From a virus, in IMG/VR virus record IMGVR_UViG_3300020202_000194, positions 1 to 27,230 of that record: a DNA stretch of 27,230 nt. The stretch is one strand, 5' to 3'. Each line of letters starts with the position of its first letter. The first letter of the stretch is position 1. Under the pieces are notes generated by a model, which saw only the letters and a list, made by a program, of their open reading frames with translations, did no database searches and was not told the origin of the DNA. Below, piece after piece: positions 2,590 to 23,744 of this stretch. The position numbers and the translations under genes are program-made.

Positions 2590-3594
2590 TTAGGTGCGCC
2601 GCGCGCTCTGCAGAACGCCAGGGCGCGTGCAGATGTTGAGCGGATTCGACTGCGCCTCGAGTTCGAGGCCCTTGTCGAACTTCATGGGCGCCGCCTTCGC
2701 GTAGCGCGGCAGGCCGATCGTGTTGACGGTTTCGAGATAGTCGGCCGGCGCGAAGATCGTCTTGAAGAGATCGGGCACGCCGGTCGGGAAGAAGCGGCAC
2801 TTGTCCGTGCCGATCGCCACCGGGCCGTGGCCGCGATAGTTCTCGAATACGATGCCGCCGTACTGGAAAGTCTGGTAGGCGGAGTTCTCGCGCAGCACGT
2901 CGGCGCTTTGCTGGATCTCGAACAGCTTCTGCGTTTCGGGATGCGAGATGAGGTCGTCGAAGAACGCATCGCCGCAGAGCGCGTGCACGCCCGTGAACGG
3001 GATGTTGCCCAGTGCGACAGCGATCGCGCGGATGACCTGCGTGCACTTCCGCTTCACCGCGCCCACCGCCGGCGACGCGTTGTCGAGGTCGAAATCGATC
3101 TCGGTCGGCTCAGCGATGTTGAACGTGGTGAAGAGGTTGTAGAGGACGGTCGAACCGTCGGCGTCGAGCACCTTGCCCTGCAGCGCGCCCATGCGGTGAT
3201 ACTCGAGGGTATAGTCGAGATCGCGCGACATGGCGCCGAGCTTCTCGTCGCGCTTGGCCTGCTGCGCCACGAGCGTGTCGGGCGAACCGAACGCGCGCAC
3301 GTTCTGGATCGAGTCGGCGTAGAGCGCGTCGTTGACCTGCAGGTGCGGCACGGCGAGCTGCACGCCGCGGCGCTTGTCGTCCATGCGCGTCTGGCCGACG
3401 GCGCCGCGCTTGGACGTCGCCACGAGCGTCAGTACGCCGGCGATGCTCTCGACCGCGACCGACGTCGTCTCGACGCCGCTCTCGGTGAAGAGTCCGAGCT
3501 CGCCGAGGCGGCCAGGCAAGAACGGCTGCGCGTTGATCGCGGCGACCAGCGCCGTCGTGGTGAAGAGGTCAGGTTTGAAGACGTCGGGAAACAT
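2590..3594 (-). CDS. Major capsid protein E (gpE family)
   Basis: 334 residues, close to lambda gpE (341), matching the phage major capsid protein E family with the HK97 fold. It forms the icosahedral shell. Visible family features are the N-terminal FKPDLFTTTALVAAINAQPF, then the LGELGLFTESGVETTSVAVE stretch, a middle LDYTLEYHRMGALQGKVLDA, and near the C-terminus FFPTGVPDLFKTIFAPADYL and the KGLELEAQSNPLNICTRP ending; these are landmarks of this family. ATG at 3594 is preceded by CTGGAGAAC, a good ribosome-binding site. It follows the decoration gene by 83 bases and is followed by a terminator. No processing site or frameshift is apparent. Confidence 0.93.
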   Translation of the reverse strand: MFPDVFKPDLFTTTALVAAINAQPFLPGRLGELGLFTESGVETTSVAVESIAGVLTLVATSKRGAVGQTRMDDKRRGVQLAVPHLQVNDALYADSIQNVRAFGSPDTLVAQQAKRDEKLGAMSRDLDYTLEYHRMGALQGKVLDADGSTVLYNLFTTFNIAEPTEIDFDLDNASPAVGAVKRKCTQVIRAIAVALGNIPFTGVHALCGDAFFDDLISHPETQKLFEIQQSADVLRENSAYQTFQYGGIVFENYRGHGPVAIGTDKCRFFPTGVPDLFKTIFAPADYLETVNTIGLPRYAKAAPMKFDKGLELEAQSNPLNICTRPGVLQSARRT

Positions 3595-3619
3595 CGGAAG
3601 TTCTCCAGGATCGAGGGTT

Positions 3620-3637
3620 CCGGCGCTCCCCCGCCGG
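3620..3637 (-). promoter_or_regulatory. Small hairpin in the leader of the major capsid gene
   Basis: CCGGCG and CGCCGG pair across a 6-base loop, 26 bases upstream of the capsid ATG. There is no T tract on either side, so it is not a clear terminator. It could protect the 5' end of a processed capsid mRNA; this is speculation. Confidence 0.3.
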
Positions 3638-3677
3638 CTAGGTCAGTCGAAGTGTGTGTGAAGGGTGAGAGCGCGCC

Positions 3678-11522: not shown

Positions 11523-12722
11523 CTAAGTCGATGCATCCTGGGGGGCCCCCAGGTCAAGGCCCCACCTGACCGCGAGCCGCTCCAATCCACAACGAAGTGT
11601 CTGCACGACAGCGCCTTCCGCCTTTTCTCGTTTCGTGAAGTGCACGAGATCGCGCGCGCGAGCGAGCGAACCGATCGGCGTCTCGTACACGCACACTTCC
11701 ATCACGACGCGCTCTTCGATCGGCAGCAGGCTCTTCAATGCGCCCTCAAGCTTGCGCCAGCTGTCGCATGCGGTGTCGAGCCCCGCGGCGCGCGCGCCAG
11801 CGCTCCCGCCATCGACCACGACGCCGTCATACGATCCGATCAGCTTCGCGTTCTTCATGGAGGCGAAGTAGAGCTTTACAACTTCCTCGGCCGCACGCAC
11901 GTGCTGCGCTTCGAGCGCTGGCTTATCGCCTGGCCGCGCCGGCCGCGACAAGCGCCCGATCGGCGCGTTCGGTTCAATGCACACAACGAAGGCCGGCTTC
12001 GCGATCGAGCCCTCAGGCGTGTCGACGACTTGGACGCGCCAGCTGCGCTTCTGCACCAGCTCAGCCGTCGGCAGCTTCGCGCCGCGCTTGCTCACCGCAT
12101 CGATCGCGGCCGCGCCATACGCTTCAGCGCGCCGCGCCCCGGTGCGCAGCTTGCGCGCGACGCGGCCATCGAGCTGCACGCCGCGCGCCTTGGCAATGCG
12201 CGCCAACCGTTCCAGCACATGCGCGTTCGACGCCGCTTCGTCGACGAGCCTCGACACATCCAGCGTCGTCGATGTCTCCGACAGGCCGCGGAATGCGTTG
12301 AGCAGCACCTGGCCCAGCAGCGGGCCATGCTTTGCCTCGAGCGCGTCGATCATCTCACGCACGCGCTTGGCCCGCTCGCGCCGGCGGCTGCGCTGAAGGC
12401 CTGCGGCATCGATCAGCCCTACGAGACGGCGCATTGCTTTCTTGCCCGCGCCTGTCGTCTGGCCGGCGGCGACCATCACGCGCGCCACCGTCACATAGGT
12501 CTCGTGCGTCGCCGCGTTCGGGAACGCTTCGATCAGCGCTGCCACTCCGCCATCGAGCCCCGCCATGCCCTCGATGAGCGCGTGCGCCCTGGCGCGCGCC
12601 GACTCGCGCTGCAGACGCGCGCCGCGGTCCGCATCGAAGCTGGCGGCAACGGGCAGGGCTTGCCCTCTCCGAGATCGAGCGTCGTCGCCAACGGAACGAA
12701 GAGCAGGTTTTGATTTAGTCAT
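11523..12722 (-). CDS. Uncharacterised phage protein, possible DUF6456-like C-terminus
   Basis: 399 residues from ATG 12722; longer starts would run into the iteron block and give repeat-derived sequence, so they are rejected. I do not recognise a firm family. The N-terminal half is helical and Ala/Arg-rich, with several Lys/Arg clusters (LQRSRRRERAKRVREM). The C-terminal part (LEAQHVRAAEEVVKLYFASM, LDTACDSWRKLEGALKSLLP, then VVMEVCVYETP and LRCGLERLAVRWGLDLG) has the layout of the DUF6456 region that accompanies regulators in Alphaproteobacteria: a helix pair, a valine strand and a final 'L..LA..wGL' helix. It is the last gene of the leftward replication operon, directly after the iterons, and is followed by a strong terminator. 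A role in replication control or as a late regulator (Q-like position) is possible but inferred. Confidence 0.75.
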   Translation of the reverse strand: MTKSKPALRSVGDDARSRRGQALPVAASFDADRGARLQRESARARAHALIEGMAGLDGGVAALIEAFPNAATHETYVTVARVMVAAGQTTGAGKKAMRRLVGLIDAAGLQRSRRRERAKRVREMIDALEAKHGPLLGQVLLNAFRGLSETSTTLDVSRLVDEAASNAHVLERLARIAKARGVQLDGRVARKLRTGARRAEAYGAAAIDAVSKRGAKLPTAELVQKRSWRVQVVDTPEGSIAKPAFVVCIEPNAPIGRLSRPARPGDKPALEAQHVRAAEEVVKLYFASMKNAKLIGSYDGVVVDGGSAGARAAGLDTACDSWRKLEGALKSLLPIEERVVMEVCVYETPIGSLARARDLVHFTKREKAEGAVVQTLRCGLERLAVRWGLDLGAPQDAST

Positions 12723-12739
12723 GAGATCACAGAGACAAA

Positions 12740-13081
12740 GTGACGAGAGTGACGAATATTCAGGGGTACCGACGCATTGCGCGCGCGGATGGGCGCGCCA
12801 CGCATTGGGGTTGGTCGTCACTTTCGTCACTCTCGTCACTGAGCCTTGCGCGCCATGGCTCACGGCGAGTGACGATTAGTGACGAAAGGGACGAATTAGT
12901 CCTCGCCGTGAAACGCGTGAAACAGGTCGAGCGGGAAGCAATCGTCACTTCGTCACTAATCGTCACTCGATGGCGCGGGTGACGAAGGGTGACGAATTCC
13001 GCAATCGTCACCCGCCCGCGGCCGAAGCCTCTGGAATTCCGGGCAGGGCAGGCGGGTGACGAAAGGTGACGAAGGGGACGA
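12740..13081. repeat. Iteron array GTGACGA/TCGTCAC, candidate replication origin
   Basis: The 360-base gene-free stretch 12723-13082 carries fifteen perfect copies of a 7-mer. GTGACGA starts at 12740, 12749, 12869, 12879, 12979, 12989, 13056 and 13066; the reverse TCGTCAC starts at 12815, 12824, 12833, 12942, 12950, 12960 and 13005. Two near copies GGGACGA lie at 12888 and 13075. Copies come in groups of two or three at 8-10 bp spacing, so on one face of the helix, and groups alternate in orientation. The array directly follows the SF3 helicase gene, like the origin/iteron arrangement of P4-type replicons. Frames through it are repeat artefacts, not genes. Confidence 0.85.
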
Positions 13082-13082
13082 A

Positions 13083-14708
13083 TCATTCGTCGCGCCCTTT
13101 CTTCTTGCCCTTGTCGGAATCATCGCCGCCGAACACGCCGGCACGCACGCGCTGCTTCCACTCGTCCGTGAGATCGAGGCCGATGCGGATCACCGCCCCG
13201 CATGACTTCTCGCGCCCGAAGCCCCGATCGGTCAGGCGACGTCCCACCATGTTGGCTGACAGCGGCTCCTTCATGCCTTCGTCCTTCGACCAGGCCTTGA
13301 AGGCGTCATAGAGCTCGGCGCCATCGACGCGCGCCCCGTCGCTCTTGACGCAGCACTCGGCGATGAAGCGGCCGATCACGTCGCTGTCGGTGCGATAGGC
13401 GAGCGTCTCGGCCAGGACGCTCTCCGGCGGGTCGAGCCCGCCGCGTTCGAAATAATCGGAAAGCCCGTCGATCAGCCAGTTGAGGATGCCCGGAGCTTCG
13501 CGTTCGAGCGCGGCCTCGAGCGCCGGCCCTTTCTCGCGCTGCTCTTCCGGTGGGATCTGCACCTTCCACGGCACGAGCAGGATGCGACGCCAGATGCCGT
13601 CGTCGCCGCCGCGGATCGAGGGACGGTTGTTGCACGAGAGAATGATCTTGCCGACGATGTGAAACTCGACCGGCGCTTCGTGCAGCTTGCGCGCGACGAT
13701 GGGCTCGCCGCCCGTGAGCGATTTGACGCCGCCTTCGCTCAGCTTGGCGCCAGGTTCCGGCTCGGAGACGCGGATCATGCGCGGCCGCTCGGCCAGGCGC
13801 GCGACGTCGGGCGAAGCGGAAGAGCCCGACTGCTCGGAATAGAGCAGCGTCTGCACCGCCACCGTCATGCAATAGGAGCCGAGCACGCGCGCAACCGCGT
13901 TCAGCAGCGTCGACTTGCCGTTCGCGCCGCCGCCGTGGAAGACGACCATCGCCTGGTCGCGCACGGAATCGATGAGGCACGCGCCGAGCGCGCGCTGCAC
14001 GAAGCCTTGCAGTGCGCGGTCTTCGTTGCCGTGTTCGTCCTTCGCCGGCGGAAGCACGCGATCGAGGAAGGCGCGAAACTCCGGGCACTGGGCGTTCTCG
14101 TCGTAGGCGACGCCGGCCATGTGCGTGAGGTAGTCTTCGCGCCGATGCTCGCGCAGCTTCTTGTCGAGCCCGTCGAACTCGAGCGTGCCGTTCTCGACAT
14201 TGAAGAGATTGGGCTTGGCGTTCCACGCTTCGAGGTCGTGGTGCAGGTGCGGCCATGATTGCGTCAGCATCGCGCTCAGCCGCGCCGAATTGCTCGATTG
14301 CGTGCGCCAGCCCATCAGCGTGCGCGCCATGTTGCGCAGTTGTTTCTTCTTGCGCTGGGTTGGCGTCAGTTTCTTGTCGTCGGCGTCGTCCTCATCCTCA
14401 TCGCCTTCATCGCCGCCGTCGAGCTTCTTCGCTTCCTCGAGCACGGCCTTCGCCTCGAGCTCGATCGCCCGCGCCGTCAGCTGCGCGCGCTTGAGGGCCT
14501 CTGCGTTTTCCGGATCGAGCCGCCAGCGTTTGCCGTCGATGAACACGAGCGTTCCCAGCCCCGGCGTGCGCCGGAGATCTTCGCCGTGGCGAAAGCGCAG
14601 CCGCTCTGAGTTGCCGATATCGTCGCGGCCGAGATCGGCCAGCGCACGATCGTCGACGACCGGGCCGCCGCCTTCGGTGACAAGACGAAGGGCAGGGGCG
14701 CTGCTCAA
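13083..14708 (-). CDS. D5/P4-type superfamily 3 replicative helicase
   Basis: 541 residues if translation begins at TTG 14708, which overlaps the upstream stop (TTGA) and has GGAG 8 bases before it; no ATG lies in a sensible place and longer frames only read the upstream genes out of frame. Domains: N-terminal region with FIDGKRWRLDPENAE; an acidic linker (98-113, DGGDEGDEDEDDADD); D5-type region (about 125-255); SF3 ATPase with Walker A GGGANGKST (259-267), motif B MIRVSEPE (311-318), motif C KIILSCNNRP (354-363) and arginine finger WRR (373-375); a C-terminal winged helix followed by a basic end (DKGKKKGRDE). It should unwind DNA at the phage origin together with the separately encoded Prim-Pol protein. 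The origin candidate begins right at its stop codon. Confidence 0.92.
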   Translation of the reverse strand: MSSAPALRLVTEGGGPVVDDRALADLGRDDIGNSERLRFRHGEDLRRTPGLGTLVFIDGKRWRLDPENAEALKRAQLTARAIELEAKAVLEEAKKLDGGDEGDEDEDDADDKKLTPTQRKKKQLRNMARTLMGWRTQSSNSARLSAMLTQSWPHLHHDLEAWNAKPNLFNVENGTLEFDGLDKKLREHRREDYLTHMAGVAYDENAQCPEFRAFLDRVLPPAKDEHGNEDRALQGFVQRALGACLIDSVRDQAMVVFHGGGANGKSTLLNAVARVLGSYCMTVAVQTLLYSEQSGSSASPDVARLAERPRMIRVSEPEPGAKLSEGGVKSLTGGEPIVARKLHEAPVEFHIVGKIILSCNNRPSIRGGDDGIWRRILLVPWKVQIPPEEQREKGPALEAALEREAPGILNWLIDGLSDYFERGGLDPPESVLAETLAYRTDSDVIGRFIAECCVKSDGARVDGAELYDAFKAWSKDEGMKEPLSANMVGRRLTDRGFGREKSCGAVIRIGLDLTDEWKQRVRAGVFGGDDSDKGKKKGRDE

Positions 14709-15250
14709 CGCGTGATCTCCGCGTAGCGGGCGAGAAAGCGCTCGAAGGCCTCGTCGGGCATCATCGGCGCGATGACCTGGTCCAGCGGCTCGTAGCCGTC
14801 TGTGCTGCTCCACACATCGGAGCTGCCCGCGGTGAGATCGCGTTGCTCCGTGCGCAGCAGTCGCAGGTCGGCGTGCTTGACTTCCGCCGGCCATGGATAC
14901 GGAAGGTCGAAGCGCGCGGCGATCGCGTGCTCGACGCGCCGCTCGATCACTTTGTATTCGGGCAGCAGCTGCTTGAGCGGCCCCACGATGTCGCCCATGT
15001 ACGCCTCGGCGGCGTCGTGCAGCAGACCAGCCAAGGCGAGCGCCGGCGGCACGTGGCGGCTGACGAGTACCGAGTGCTGCGCAACGGAATAGAACGCCAA
15101 GCATTGGCCGGCGTAGCGACACGCGTTCGAGAGTCCCCACGCAATGTCCTCGACGTCGATCGTCCACGGTTTCGGGTCGAGGAAATCGAAATAGACGCCG
15201 GATCTGCAAACGATAGTCGCGCCGACGACGCCGGGCTTGGTCGCGTTCAT
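14705..15250 (-). CDS. HD-domain phosphohydrolase, YfbR-like 5'-deoxynucleotidase
   Basis: 181 residues. HD-family metal site: His59 (SVAQHSVLV), His78-Asp79 ([12 protein letters not shown]), and a later acidic residue in the [14 protein letters not shown] helix. The surrounding [10 protein letters not shown] and [15 protein letters not shown] are characteristic of YfbR-type nucleotidases, which remove phosphate from deoxyribonucleoside monophosphates with a bound divalent metal. In phages, members can reshape nucleotide pools or spare modified nucleotides. It overlaps the Prim-Pol gene at its start (ATGA) and the helicase start at its end, so the three are co-translated. Placement between primase and helicase suggests a direct contribution to phage DNA synthesis; substrate is not known. 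Confidence 0.87.
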
Positions 15251-16635
15251 GCCGCCTCCGCTTCGCTAGGCAGCACCGCGACCTGAACGTCGGAAGCGCC
15301 GGCGTGACGCCACCAATGCGTTGCGAGAATGCCGAGCACCTGCGTGTGGCGCTCGACGGAAATGAACCTTTCCCACTTCGTGCCCTTCGACACGGTGAAG
15401 CTCTGCAACCTGTCAGGCAGCACGACGAGCACGCGGCCATTCCAGCGCATCGTCGCGCCGGGCCTGGCGATATCGGCGCGCGGTAGCCGCCAGTCCGGGA
15501 AGCCGCCTGAATTGCAAGCAAGTCCCCCGACGAGCGTCTGCAAGTCGCGCGTCACGAAAAGGCCGTAGGCGCCGCCGTGCGAAGCTTCCCACGCCAGCGC
15601 TGCACGTTCGGCGTCGTCTTCGGTCGCGACGATCAGCGTCGCCGCGGCTTCGGGCGGCGCGATTGCCAGACGTGCCGAGAAGTTCTCGGCCGCTTTTTCA
15701 TCGCGCATCAGAACGGTCGGTGTTCTTCGGTCGCGCCGCTCTTCACGCGTGACCTTGCGCGGCCGCGACTGTCCGACGGCGAGGCCCCAGGCGATTTTCT
15801 CGGCGATCTGCTGCGAAAGCCAGGGCTCGCGGCTCGTCGCCATCTGCTCCGCCGCGGCCTGCAGCGCGCGGGTAGCATACGCGGCTTCGATTTCGCCGCC
15901 ACCGACGAGCTCGCCGATCGACGCGGCCTCGCCGGTCAGCGTGGTGTTTTGCGTGCCCGGCTGCGCTGTCGCGATGCGCCGGCACGCGCTGTCGAGCGCT
16001 TTCTCGCCATAGGCCGTCGCGCGCCCGCCGCGAAAGCGATCGGCATAAACCTGCGCCGCCGCTGATGGCTTAGGCGCGGGCGGCACGATCGCATCGAGCA
16101 GCCAGCGCGGCGCTTCGGCGATCGCCTCTCCCTCAAGCGTCCATTTGTAGACGCGGCCTGAGGGGTGCACGGAAGGCGGCAGCACGATGTAGCCGCCTTC
16201 GCCGCGAACATCGAACCCGGCGCACGGAACGCGCTTGCCATCGACCAGGTAACCGCCGCCCCGATTCCTGACGCCCGCGGCGTGACGGAAGAGCAGGTGT
16301 CGGCCTTTTCCCGTGCGCTGCTGCAAGGTGGAAGGCAGCGCGCCATGCGCGGCCTGCAATTGGCCCAGCGCCGCCTCGGCGCCGGGGCCGTCGAGGTCCA
16401 GCACGAACACGCCGGATTCCTCGCCGCACCTGAGGCCGATGTTCGCGTCGGGCCACTTCGCCCACCACTTAGCGATCTGCTCGGCGTCGCGCGTCGCAAG
16501 ATGGAAGCCGCCGTCGTGCGCGCCCGGTTTTGACGGGCCAATCATCGGCGTCTTGTCGCGCGGTTTCAGCGGAAACACTGCCCAGCCGCGCGCGGCGTAG
16601 GCCTGCGCTGCCTCGTGGAAAGCGGAGCCGGTCAT
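15247..16635 (-). CDS. Bifunctional DNA primase/polymerase (Prim-Pol, AEP superfamily)
   Basis: 462 residues. The N-terminal 180 residues match the Prim-Pol family: AAQAYAARGWAVFPLKPRDK (10-28), KWWAKWPDANIGLRCG (57-71), the metal-binding VLDLDG (Asp80, Asp82), GKGRHLLFRH (109-118) and FDVRGEGGYIVLPPS (141-155) with the substrate-binding His/Arg positions. This fold synthesises primers and can extend DNA. Residues about 190-462 lack a recognisable helicase; the helicase is a separate protein two genes downstream, so this is a split version of the primase-helicase fusions found in many mobile elements. It overlaps its neighbours by 4 bases on both sides. Confidence 0.9.
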   Translation of the reverse strand: MTGSAFHEAAQAYAARGWAVFPLKPRDKTPMIGPSKPGAHDGGFHLATRDAEQIAKWWAKWPDANIGLRCGEESGVFVLDLDGPGAEAALGQLQAAHGALPSTLQQRTGKGRHLLFRHAAGVRNRGGGYLVDGKRVPCAGFDVRGEGGYIVLPPSVHPSGRVYKWTLEGEAIAEAPRWLLDAIVPPAPKPSAAAQVYADRFRGGRATAYGEKALDSACRRIATAQPGTQNTTLTGEAASIGELVGGGEIEAAYATRALQAAAEQMATSREPWLSQQIAEKIAWGLAVGQSRPRKVTREERRDRRTPTVLMRDEKAAENFSARLAIAPPEAAATLIVATEDDAERAALAWEASHGGAYGLFVTRDLQTLVGGLACNSGGFPDWRLPRADIARPGATMRWNGRVLVVLPDRLQSFTVSKGTKWERFISVERHTQVLGILATHWWRHAGASDVQVAVLPSEAEAA

Positions 16636-17516
16636 GCCGCGCGCTCCGCGGCGATCGCCTCGAAGTCGCGCCCGTCGCCGTCGAGCAGCGCTTGACTTCC
16701 GGTGAAGCGCGCCACGCGCTTGACCGCGGCGTCGACATAAGCCGGCTCGATCTCAACGCCGGCGCCGATGCGCCCGCTCGACGCCGCGGCGATCAGCGTC
16801 GAGCCTGAACCCAGGAATGGATCGTAGACGGCCTCGCCGCGCTGTGTGTGGTTGAGCAGCGGCCGCTGCATCAGCCCGACGGGCTTCTGCGTCGAATGGC
16901 CGGTGCGGCCGTCGTCTTCAACGCGCAGCGGCGCTTGCCAGACGGTCACCTGGTCGCGCGCGCCGTTCCATCGCGCCGTCGCGCCCTTGCGCACCGCGTA
17001 GAGGCAGCTCTCGTGCTTCCAATGGTAGTGGCCGCGTCCGATCGCAGCGTGCGTCTTGTTCCAGACGATCTGATAACGCAGCTCGAAGGCGCAGGCCTGA
17101 AGTGCGCGCTCGACCGCGCTGTGCTGCAGCGCGGCGCACCACACGTACGCGACCGCGCCGCTGAAATGGCGAAAGGCCGAGCGCCAGTCGGCGCGGTTGT
17201 CGTTCGCGACCTCGCCGATCGCCAGCGAGCCGCCGGCGCGCACGCGCAGGCGCCAAGCGGGATCGTAGTTCACGCCGTAAGGCGGGTCCGTCACCATGAT
17301 CGGCGGCTTCAGCGCGCCGATCGCGCGCTTGGCGTCTTCGCGCCGCGTGGCATCGCCGCAGAGCACGCGGTGCGCGCCGATCAGCCAGAGATCGCCACGG
17401 CGGCTGACCGCCGGCGCCGCGCGCGGATCGCGCGCTTGCGTTTCGCGCGCCTCCTCTGGCGCGTCGTTGTCATTTGCCGCGCCGAAGAGCGGGCCGGGGG
17501 CGTTGTCGTCGCTCAC
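16632..17516 (-). CDS. Site-specific DNA methyltransferase (beta-type N6-adenine/N4-cytosine)
   Basis: 294 residues. Catalytic motif IV DPPY is at 77-80 and the AdoMet motif I DPFLGSGST at 232-240, the order that defines the beta class (as in CcrM). HSTQKPVGLM (207-216) is the usual motif X region. The N-terminus is short and Asp/Asn-rich (GAANDNDAPEEA), and GDLWLIGAHRVLCGDA precedes the catalytic core as in phage and ParB-linked methyltransferases. The CcrM C-terminal RAMA domain is absent and no restriction enzyme gene is next to it, so it is a solitary methylase. It could protect phage DNA or change expression. It overlaps the GcrA-like gene by 4 bases; the recognition sequence cannot be read from the protein. 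Confidence 0.92.
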   Translation of the reverse strand: MSDDNAPGPLFGAANDNDAPEEARETQARDPRAAPAVSRRGDLWLIGAHRVLCGDATRREDAKRAIGALKPPIMVTDPPYGVNYDPAWRLRVRAGGSLAIGEVANDNRADWRSAFRHFSGAVAYVWCAALQHSAVERALQACAFELRYQIVWNKTHAAIGRGHYHWKHESCLYAVRKGATARWNGARDQVTVWQAPLRVEDDGRTGHSTQKPVGLMQRPLLNHTQRGEAVYDPFLGSGSTLIAAASSGRIGAGVEIEPAYVDAAVKRVARFTGSQALLDGDGRDFEAIAAERAA

Positions 17517-18040
17517 GCCCGCCGCCGCCTGCTCTGCATCGATGTTCCGCGCTGCCGCGCGAGCTGCCTATGACACTCGCAATAGGGATCGCGCTCGCCG
17601 TCGGTATTCGCCGGCCTGGCGCAGAATGCGAAGCTCGCCTTGAGCGGGTCGCCGATCGGCCAGCGACACTGGCCGCGCACGAGCGACTCGGCGTTGCGCG
17701 CGCGCGGCGCGCCCGTGTCATCGAGCAGCGGCTCGAGCTCTTCGATCGGCGCAGGCGCTGCAGCGGCGATCGCGCGCGGCGGCCGCGGCTCGGCATAGGA
17801 GCGTGCGCGTGCGCGAAGCCTCTCGCGCGATTGCGGCCGCGCCGGCGACGCGCGTTTGCCGAGGCCCAGCCGGTTCACCTTGCCGATGACCGCGTTGCGC
17901 GTGAACATGCCGAGCTGCTCGGCGCCGAGGGCGTTGGCGATCTGCGAGCAGCTCCGGCCCTCGGCCCATAGCGCGCGCAGCCGCGCCACGGCCTTGTCGG
18001 TCCAGACGCCCTGGCTGATGCAGTCGAAGCGCCGGCTCAT
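17513..18040 (-). CDS. gcrA: GcrA-family cell-cycle regulator homologue
   Basis: 175 residues, the normal size of GcrA. The N-terminal DNA-binding domain is clear: GVWTDKAVARLRALWAEGRS then CSQIANALG and MFTRNAVIGKVNRLGLGKR (11-63). The C-terminal signature CRWPIGDP, FAFC, DPYCECH gives Cys125, Cys140, Cys154 and His157, a likely metal site and the sigma70-contacting part in the host protein. In Caulobacter, GcrA binds RNA polymerase sigma70 and activates promoters with methylated GANTC. Here the gene is embedded in the phage operon, overlapping both a DNA methyltransferase gene and a DnaA-domain gene by 4 bases. The linker is long and proline-rich. A role in diverting host cell-cycle transcription or driving phage promoters is inferred. 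Confidence 0.92.
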   Translation of the reverse strand: MSRRFDCISQGVWTDKAVARLRALWAEGRSCSQIANALGAEQLGMFTRNAVIGKVNRLGLGKRASPARPQSRERLRARARSYAEPRPPRAIAAAAPAPIEELEPLLDDTGAPRARNAESLVRGQCRWPIGDPLKASFAFCARPANTDGERDPYCECHRQLARQRGTSMQSRRRRA

Positions 18041-18375
18041 TGCGGCGCTCCCTTCTTCGGCTTCGTGATGCGGCCAAGCGCGTAAAGGATGGCCGTGTGG
18101 TCGCGGTTGAAGATCTCGCCCAGGTGCGGCGTCGAGAACTCAGGGAATACCTTGGCCACGAGCCCGATGGCTTCCCAGCGAGCGGCCACGATCTCGCGCC
18201 GGCGGCTGTGGCCGAGAATGTCCGCGACGCTGACGCTATGGCGCGTCGCGCAGCGGTCGATGATCGCGTTGACGCGTTTGCGCGCGGGACCATCGGTCAC
18301 GTCGCGCGCTTCAGCATCCGGGCAATGCTCCGCCGCGCCTGACCCTGCAGGCGACGGCCTCGATAGATTTGTCAT
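18037..18375 (-). CDS. Stand-alone DnaA domain IV (origin-binding domain) protein
   Basis: 112 residues from ATG 18375; GGGGAGGA lies 13 bases upstream, rather far. In-frame TTG and GTG codons exist further upstream but would place this purine-rich site inside the gene. Residues 33-103 match DnaA domain IV: VNAIIDRCATRHSVSVADIL, then HSRRREIVAARWEA, and the signature FNRDHTAILYALGRI with RDHT at 91-94, the residues that contact DnaA boxes in bacterial DnaA. The AAA+ ATPase and the DnaB-loading domains are missing, so it cannot initiate alone. It may bind DnaA boxes as a competitor, a transcription regulator, or bring phage replication proteins to the origin. It overlaps the GcrA-like gene by 4 bases. 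Confidence 0.88.
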   Translation of the reverse strand: MTNLSRPSPAGSGAAEHCPDAEARDVTDGPARKRVNAIIDRCATRHSVSVADILGHSRRREIVAARWEAIGLVAKVFPEFSTPHLGEIFNRDHTAILYALGRITKPKKGAPQ

Positions 18376-18414
18376 GACTGGGTCTTGTCCTCCCCGCAGC
18401 ACACACAATCGAAA

Positions 18415-21623: not shown

Positions 21624-23744
21624 ATGAACACTCTAACGCGCCCGCGCGCGCCGAAATCGATTCGCGGCGAAGAAGTGAAGCCCAAGCTGGCCCCGCTCGA
21701 AGCGCGCGGCGTCCCGCTCGATCGCTGCTATGTCGCGCCTGAGAACGCGCGCGCGGGCCTGCCGCCCGAGAACATCGACGAGCTCGCCGCCAACATCGCC
21801 GAGTATGGCCAGCTGCAGCCGCTGATCGGCTATGTCGACGACAAGGGAAACTTCGCCATCGTCGGCGGCCGCCGTCGCCTGGCCGCGCTGACGCAGCTGA
21901 AGGCGCAGAACGCCGGCGGCGTCAGCCCATGGGCGGAAGCGATTCCGTTCCGCGAGATCGATCAGGCCGACGCGATCGGCGCGTCGCTCGCCGAGAACAC
22001 GCAGCGCGTTGATCTCGGCGTCGTCGAAGCGGCGTTGCAGTTCAACCGCATGACGCTCGACGGCAAGAGCGCCGCCGATATCGCCAAGGCCTTCGGCGTG
22101 ACCGAGCGCTTCGTGAAGAGCCGCATGCGTCTGGCGTCGCTGCACGAGCCGATCCTCGAAGCGCTGCGCAAGGGCGAGATCACGCTCGATGTCGCGCAGA
22201 TCTACGCCGGCGCCGTCACCGCGCGCCAGGAGCGCGTCTGGAAAGCCCTCGGCCGGATGCGCAACGTCGAGTATCGCGTGAAGGAGGAGCTCAAGAAAAA
22301 CACGCTGCGCGCCGGCGATGCGCTCGCACGTTTTGTCGGCGAGGAGGCCTACGTCGCCGCCGGCGGCGTTGTCGAAGCCGAGCTTTTCACGCAGGCAAAC
22401 GACTCGCGGTGGCTGAACGTCGATCTCGCCGAGAAGCTGGCGAAAGAGAAGCTCAAGGCCAAGGCCGCGGAGCTCGAGGCCGAAGGGTTCCTGTTCGTCG
22501 AGCCCGGTGTCTCCATAGACTCGAGCAAGTACGTCGACGGCAACCTCGGCAAGGCGCGCAAGCCGACCGCGGACGAAAAGAAGCGCCTCACCGAGATCAG
22601 CGCGCGCGAGAAAGCGATCGACGCCGAGCAGCGCGCCATCTGGAAGAAGTCTGACGAAGAGCGCGACGGCGATCTGACCGAGGAGGAGGACGCGCGCATC
22701 GATGCGCTCCAGGCCGAGGAAGCCGACCTTCGCACTGAGCGTGAGCGGATCACGGCTGGCCAGATCGAGTTCGACGAAAAGGCTAAGAAGAAGTCGGGCG
22801 TCATCGTCACCGTCGACGAGGATGGCGCGCTGCTGATCACGCGCGGCGTCGTCGCGCCGAAGGAGCGCCCGATCGGCAACGGCCGTGCGCCAACGCCGCA
22901 GAAGCGCGCCGCCAAGATCGACCAGGCGCACAAGCGCGAGGCCAACGGCGCGCCGATGACGAACACGACGCACGAACGCGCCTCGCGCGTGGCCAGCGCC
23001 GTCGTCGGCCGCTCGCTCATGGACAAGCCCGCCGTCGCGGTCGCGGTCATCGCCGCCTTCCTGGCCCGCCAGGTGCTGAAGGCCGGCACGCGCCACGAAT
23101 ACGGCCGCGGCGCATCAAGCGAAGTGCTCGACCTTTCGCTGCCTGACCATCGCTTCGAGAAGACCGAGTGTCCGAAGCTGCTGAGCGACAAGGCGCGCGA
23201 GACCGACCGGCAGCGCTGGCTCACGGCAATCGACAAGCGCTGGGACGAACTCGAGTCGGTCATCGCCGCTTGGCCGATGGACGATCAGCTCAAGCTGCTG
23301 GCGTTCTGTGTCGGCGAGCGCGTGCGCCTCGTCGAAACGACGCCAAGCTACGTCGACAAGAAGGAGCGCACTCAGCTCGCCGCGATCGCCAAGCTCACCG
23401 GCGCCGATCCGAGCGCACACTTCACGCCCGACATCGACTTCCTTAAGGGCGTCGCCAGCGAAGGCCTGCAGGCGGCGGCGCGCGAAATGGGCCTCGACAG
23501 CGCCGGCTGCAAGACCAAGGGCGCGCTCGCCTCGCTGATCGCGACCAAGGCGCCCGAGAAACGCTGGACGCCGCCGATCGTGCGCACGCTCTGCGGCATC
23601 GCCATCGCGCCCGTGCCGAAGGCCAAGCCCGCGAAGAAGGCTGCGAAGGGCGTGGTGAAGAAGGCCGTCGCGAAGAAGGCAAAGGTCAAGAAGGTCGCGA
23701 AAGCGTCGCCGAAGAAAAGCGCCCGCGCGGAGCCGCGGGCATGA
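21624..23744 (+). CDS. Large ParB-like CTPase-fold DNA-binding protein
   Basis: 706 residues, about twice a chromosomal ParB. The N-terminal ParB/Srx domain has the CTP-binding motifs GGRRR (81-85) and ENTQR (124-128), followed by a helix-turn-helix SAADIAKAFGVTERFVKSRM (149-168) of the ParB/KorB type. Residues about 240-430 are charged and helical (a predicted coiled coil around 310-390). Residues about 450-650 form a second domain without a known match (FLKGVASEGLQAAAREMGLD). The last 44 residues are a Lys/Ala-rich tail like a histone H1 tail (KPAKKAAKGVVKKAVAKKAK). Similar long ParB-like proteins occur on alphaproteobacterial phages and plasmids. No ParA is present. It may act as a phage DNA organiser or regulator. 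Confidence 0.9.
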   Translation: MNTLTRPRAPKSIRGEEVKPKLAPLEARGVPLDRCYVAPENARAGLPPENIDELAANIAEYGQLQPLIGYVDDKGNFAIVGGRRRLAALTQLKAQNAGGVSPWAEAIPFREIDQADAIGASLAENTQRVDLGVVEAALQFNRMTLDGKSAADIAKAFGVTERFVKSRMRLASLHEPILEALRKGEITLDVAQIYAGAVTARQERVWKALGRMRNVEYRVKEELKKNTLRAGDALARFVGEEAYVAAGGVVEAELFTQANDSRWLNVDLAEKLAKEKLKAKAAELEAEGFLFVEPGVSIDSSKYVDGNLGKARKPTADEKKRLTEISAREKAIDAEQRAIWKKSDEERDGDLTEEEDARIDALQAEEADLRTERERITAGQIEFDEKAKKKSGVIVTVDEDGALLITRGVVAPKERPIGNGRAPTPQKRAAKIDQAHKREANGAPMTNTTHERASRVASAVVGRSLMDKPAVAVAVIAAFLARQVLKAGTRHEYGRGASSEVLDLSLPDHRFEKTECPKLLSDKARETDRQRWLTAIDKRWDELESVIAAWPMDDQLKLLAFCVGERVRLVETTPSYVDKKERTQLAAIAKLTGADPSAHFTPDIDFLKGVASEGLQAAAREMGLDSAGCKTKGALASLIATKAPEKRWTPPIVRTLCGIAIAPVPKAKPAKKAAKGVVKKAVAKKAKVKKVAKASPKKSARAEPRA

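Follow-up and report, generated by a model that had tools for sequence, protein, structure and literature searches.

How a phage that encodes a D5/SF3 helicase marks the place where its replication starts, and which protein reads the mark, are the questions raised by a dense array of short repeats in IMG/VR virus record IMGVR_UViG_3300020202_000194, of which positions 1-27,230 (hereafter the window, probably a fragment) were analysed. The array occupies positions 12740-13081 and had been read in a first-pass annotation as a probable replication origin. Comparison with other phages and with described origins supports that reading, as such arrays travel with the 3' ends of D5/SF3 helicase genes in unrelated phages, just as in P4 crr, SaPI/PICI and SCCmec. 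The array is very probably a phage replication origin, and the C-terminal winged helix of the adjoining D5/SF3 helicase very probably binds it.

Within the array, the word GTGACGA stands eight times on the plus strand (starting at 12740, 12749, 12869, 12879, 12979, 12989, 13056 and 13066) and seven times on the minus strand, where it is read as TCGTCAC (12815, 12824, 12833, 12942, 12950, 12960 and 13005), accompanied by two GGGACGA near copies (~12888-12894 and 13075-13081). These numbers agree exactly, on recount, with those of the first-pass annotation, and the copy positions likewise bear out its description of iterons spaced at 8-10 bp within groups whose orientation alternates. The whole 27-kb window holds 21 copies of GTGACGA, where 100 dinucleotide shuffles lead one to expect 4.4 and never gave more than 10; six of the copies fall outside the block and are scattered. 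Counting the most frequent 7-mer in each 342-bp stretch told nothing, since simple repeats swamp such counts.

The groups are arranged in modules. Module 1 (12740-12839) comprises two forward iterons, about 60 bp, and three reverse iterons, with perfect inverted arms of 18 bp (12739-12756 / 12823-12840), and module 2 (12869-12966) comprises two forward iterons and a near copy followed by three reverse iterons, with perfect arms of 21 bp (12866-12886 / 12949-12969) and 62 bp between them. Module 3 (12979-13081) is made of a forward pair, a single reverse iteron, and a forward pair with a near copy. The cruciform potential suggested earlier thus has real inverted repeats behind it, of which opposed binding sites, rather than cruciforms, are the simplest reading. 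The gaps between opposed iterons are GC-rich (~0.70), and the most AT-rich stretch near the array (12700-12759, GC 0.37-0.43 vs 0.67 for the window) is a candidate melting site. Cumulative GC skew of the window does not turn clearly at the array.

The array fills the whole gap between two minus-strand genes. On one side lies the gene for the 540-aa D5/SF3 helicase (13083-14705, minus strand; matches to D5_N, DUF5906 and Pox_D5), the proposed initiator, whose stop codon is at 13083-13085; the block therefore begins immediately 3' of the helicase gene, its end at 13081 being 1 bp short of the stop, as had been noted at first pass. On the other side, 18 bp from the array edge, starts the next gene (11523-12722, minus strand), encoding a 399-aa protein with a weak DUF6456 match just below the curated cut-off; a search with one sequence found no relatives of this protein in viral contigs, nor were any found in the phages collection. 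Upstream of the helicase gene are an HD-type phosphohydrolase gene (14705-15250, minus strand), whose product resembles phage deoxyribonucleoside 5'-monophosphate phosphatases, and a Prim-Pol primase/polymerase gene (15247-16635, minus strand; PF09250, E 1e-48), the probable primer maker at the proposed origin. Further along, a methyltransferase, a GcrA homologue and a stand-alone DnaA domain IV protein are encoded in a row (16632-18408) and resemble parts of alphaproteobacterial cell-cycle control, and a 706-aa protein with a ParB-like N-terminal part and an HTH region is encoded at 21624-23744.

Conservation of the array is evident in relatives of the helicase. Contig IMGVR_UViG_3300048834_000325 (L008/L200) encodes a helicase ~70% identical to that of the window and carries GTGACGA seven times directly 3' of it, past a small ORF, followed by a relative of the 399-aa protein at the same place as in the window; the small ORF (L200, ~3405-3650) is HTH-like and absent from the window. 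In a second contig (L197/L245) the array likewise lies beside a related helicase. Both L200 and L197 carry the word at the same place. When the window is aligned with these two, the iterons are conserved and the spacers vary; module 2 has its equivalent in both, and module 3 is an extra module of the window, absent from both.

A further question is whether repeats lie 3' of D5 helicases in general. In a survey of loci found by helicase protein search alone (n=80, of which 76 were scored for repeats), the 400 bp beyond the 3' end of the gene held more repeats than any other window of the locus in 47 of 76 cases and ranked in the top 5% in 55 of 76; after thinning, the top-5% counts were 33/51 at <90% identity, 16/31 at <70% and 7/19 at <50% (p 2e-5 for the last). 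About a quarter of the D5 loci have no strong repeat at this place. None of the 80 protein-selected loci carries two copies of GTGACGA 3' of the helicase gene; most have other words there, such as AGTAACA, AGTAACC, AAGTGTCC, TGACAGG, GTGACGC and GTGAATA. Whatever the word, same-orientation neighbours are mostly 9 bp apart, and the grammar common to D5 lineages, with neighbours at ~9 bp and opposed groups at ~70-100 bp, is combined with a lineage-specific word. Iteron pairs 9 bp apart stand 3' of the helicase in phi105, RcapNL and Marshawn, and the word of the alphaproteobacterial phage RcapNL, AGGGACG, is similar to the window's near copies (GGGACGA); RR1-A has no such repeat 3' of its helicase gene. 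A protein search for D5 helicases in genome contigs gave no match, and literature searches on D5-like helicases with iterons and on Sfi21 returned nothing relevant.

The helicase itself points to the reader of the word. Domain matches and a structural model (pLDDT 90.4) assign it a D5_N region and an SF3 core with a C-terminal winged helix at residues 452-521 and a recognition helix at 484-493. Among known structures the model matches that of the SaPI5 primase-helicase best, with Z 28.9 across 398 residues and an alignment that runs to model residue 527 (profile E 2e-25). The solved origin-binding domain of P4 alpha is absent from the structural matches, which says nothing either way, because matches in this search were dominated by the helicase core. 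Across 35 thinned helicases, similarity of the word tracks similarity of the winged helix once ATPase-core similarity is removed (partial r 0.26, permutation p 0.0005, in a type of test, the partial Mantel, known to be liberal, and with one 7-mer per locus as a crude description of the word); the reverse case, word against ATPase core given the winged helix, gave no such correlation. In a sliding scan, the segment best correlated with the word was 481-510, covering most of the recognition helix and the wing, with segments 121-150 and 271-300 nearly as well correlated. This co-variation is suggestive of reading by the winged helix. Moreover, the helicase is constant among loci and the genes across the array from it differ, so that, among the four candidate initiators listed at first pass, the winged helix of the helicase is favoured.

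The word GTGACGA recurs well beyond close relatives. A first search pattern, a single iteron pair, was too loose, most of its matches lacking an array; a stricter pattern of two close forward iterons with one reverse iteron 50-80 bp on occurred in 117 viral stretches vs 11 for a reversed-word control, a count that includes many near relatives and is not one of independent events. Two matches (L206, L154) lay within coding sequence and were discounted as chance occurrences. Across the viral GTGACGA loci, neighbours are 8-10 bp apart, opposed groups ~66-86 bp and divergent groups often 45 bp, and the D5 helicases beside such arrays turn their 3' end toward the array in 18 of 20 viral loci and in all seven genome-contig loci. 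In a set of AT-rich phage loci (L202:5000-5521, L141:5328-5762, L082:1577-1966 and 54 others), a DnaA domain IV gene is followed by a GTGACGA array and then by a BT4734/PriCT_1 primase-helicase gene, the former with its 3' end toward the array (57/57) and the latter with its 5' end toward it (56/56); these loci apparently represent a second initiator type with the same word. Profile comparison of the D5 helicase with the primase-helicase of these phages was collinear through the P-loop and C-terminus at a probability of 3.7%. Firmicutes mobile elements (L253, L255, L263, L264 and similar) carry a near-identical 73-bp GTGACGA/TCGTCAC element beside an AAA_25 helicase and a Mob_Pre relaxase, with an integrase in the group, and this element is probably their vegetative origin. 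In actinophage-like loci (L133, L162, L228 and similar), an opposed GTGACGA pair with a conserved centre lies away from the D5 helicase, near a serine recombinase, a PD-(D/E)XK-like protein or a repressor-like gene. In one Steroidobacter MAG (L266, L282, L302, L303, L307, L327-L329), GTGACGA-GTCAGA palindromes occur on many contigs, resemble interspersed REP-like repeats and look unrelated. A literature search on GTGACGA as an iteron or origin-of-replication word returned nothing relevant.

Two generalisations follow the same lines: that one origin grammar directly 3' of the gene may be common to the D5/SF3 helicases of phages, satellites and some archaeal viruses, each lineage having its own word for the winged helix to read, and that GTGACGA may have come to stand beside three helicase types (D5, BT4734-type primase-helicase with DnaA domain IV, and AAA_25 RepA-like) through shared ancestry of the reader domain or through convergence. 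They are put forward tentatively and jointly, with chances that we place slightly short of even.

Other explanations of the array start from its remaining neighbours. The stand-alone DnaA domain IV protein (18037-18408, minus strand; PF08299) might bind the iterons of the origin and recruit the helicase, a possibility prompted by its presence in the window and by the 57 AT-rich viral loci, where the same GTGACGA grammar lies between a DnaA domain IV gene and a primase-helicase gene. In the window, however, that gene is ~5 kb from the array, a search with its product found no relative in any other array locus, the window contains no DnaA boxes (TTATNCACA), and the repeat rule holds across D5 helicases in a survey that scored helicase loci for repeats. 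Altogether, a DnaA-led origin is unlikely here.

An array lying just upstream of the start of the 399-aa gene (12722) could also be an operator or regulatory region for the 399-aa and terminase genes, to which a repressor or the 399-aa protein itself would bind, and in a few actinophage-like loci similar arrays do adjoin a repressor-like gene. Yet D5 loci keep the helicase but not the gene beyond the array (VRR-NUC, DUF6456-like or small unknowns), and 17 sites over 342 bp are more than is usual for an operator, which makes a regulatory role very unlikely. The terminase genes, ~1.4 kb from the array, would suit a packaging (pac/cos-like) site, and the recurrence of some GTGACGA palindromes on many contigs of the Steroidobacter MAG would suit an interspersed palindrome with no part in replication; but the array occurs once in the window and tracks helicase, not terminase, genes across phages, and either of these roles is extremely improbable.

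The reading of the array as an origin served by its own helicase draws on the position, repeat grammar and conservation of the array, its recurrence 3' of D5 helicases and the structural kinship of the helicase, all of them observed. In the mechanism that we propose, the D5/SF3 helicase, whose gene lies immediately upstream, would bind the GTGACGA iterons with its C-terminal winged helix; oppositely oriented iteron groups would load helicase rings face to face; the rings would open the DNA, possibly at the AT-rich stretch, and start two forks; and the neighbouring Prim-Pol would supply primers. By these results, much the same layout seems to be common among full-size phages encoding D5 helicases, cultured ones included. 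If so, sequence alone could show where the origins of many uncultured phages lie, and perhaps which words they use, and the pairing of word and winged helix would offer a direct way to study start-site recognition by a self-loading helicase.

As a probable origin, the array is of a known kind; what goes beyond that kind is the wide recurrence of the layout in phages and the use of GTGACGA next to three types of helicase. In P4, the type 1 repeats (TGTTCACC, i.e. GGTGAACA) set in ~46 bp beyond the 3' end of alpha, and the first pair of crr is 9 bp apart and faces inverted copies, much as in the window; P4 differs in its word, GGTGAACA rather than the GTGACGA of the window, in a second origin region ~5 kb away and in the fusion of the primase within alpha. 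The C-terminal domain of SaPI Rep helicases and of SCCmec Cch2 has been reported to recognise iterons directly downstream of their own genes (PMC7581432). Cch2 is a D5_N-type helicase like that of the window, but its iteron is AAGTG in three copies, against 15-17 copies in alternating groups here.

Origins of the pRN1 and BIP-1 type also lie 3' of a Prim-Pol/SF3/winged-helix gene: in pRN1 a stem-loop of ~100 bp 3' of the replication gene is required, and phage BIP-1 has been proposed to have the same (PMC4234260). Unlike the window, these origins are described as stem-loops without iterons; yet the pRN1 element, with a 21-nt stem and a 58-nt loop, is close in its dimensions to module 2, which suggests, by analogy, that stems of this type may be opposed binding sites.

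The array also closely resembles SaPI and PICI origins, which lie 3' of rep and consist of two iteron sets flanking an AT-rich region (PMC6092414). The array shares with them its place immediately 3' of an SF3 helicase gene and its opposed sets (here two full opposed modules plus extra copies), and SaPI5 provides the best match to the helicase model. The window differs in its full phage gene set, its separate Prim-Pol and its word; an AT-rich region between the iteron sets is lacking, the gap at 12760-12819 having a GC of 0.70. The array was accordingly not filed as a PICI origin, because its gaps are GC-rich and the AT-rich stretch stands at one end; most likely, it works like one.
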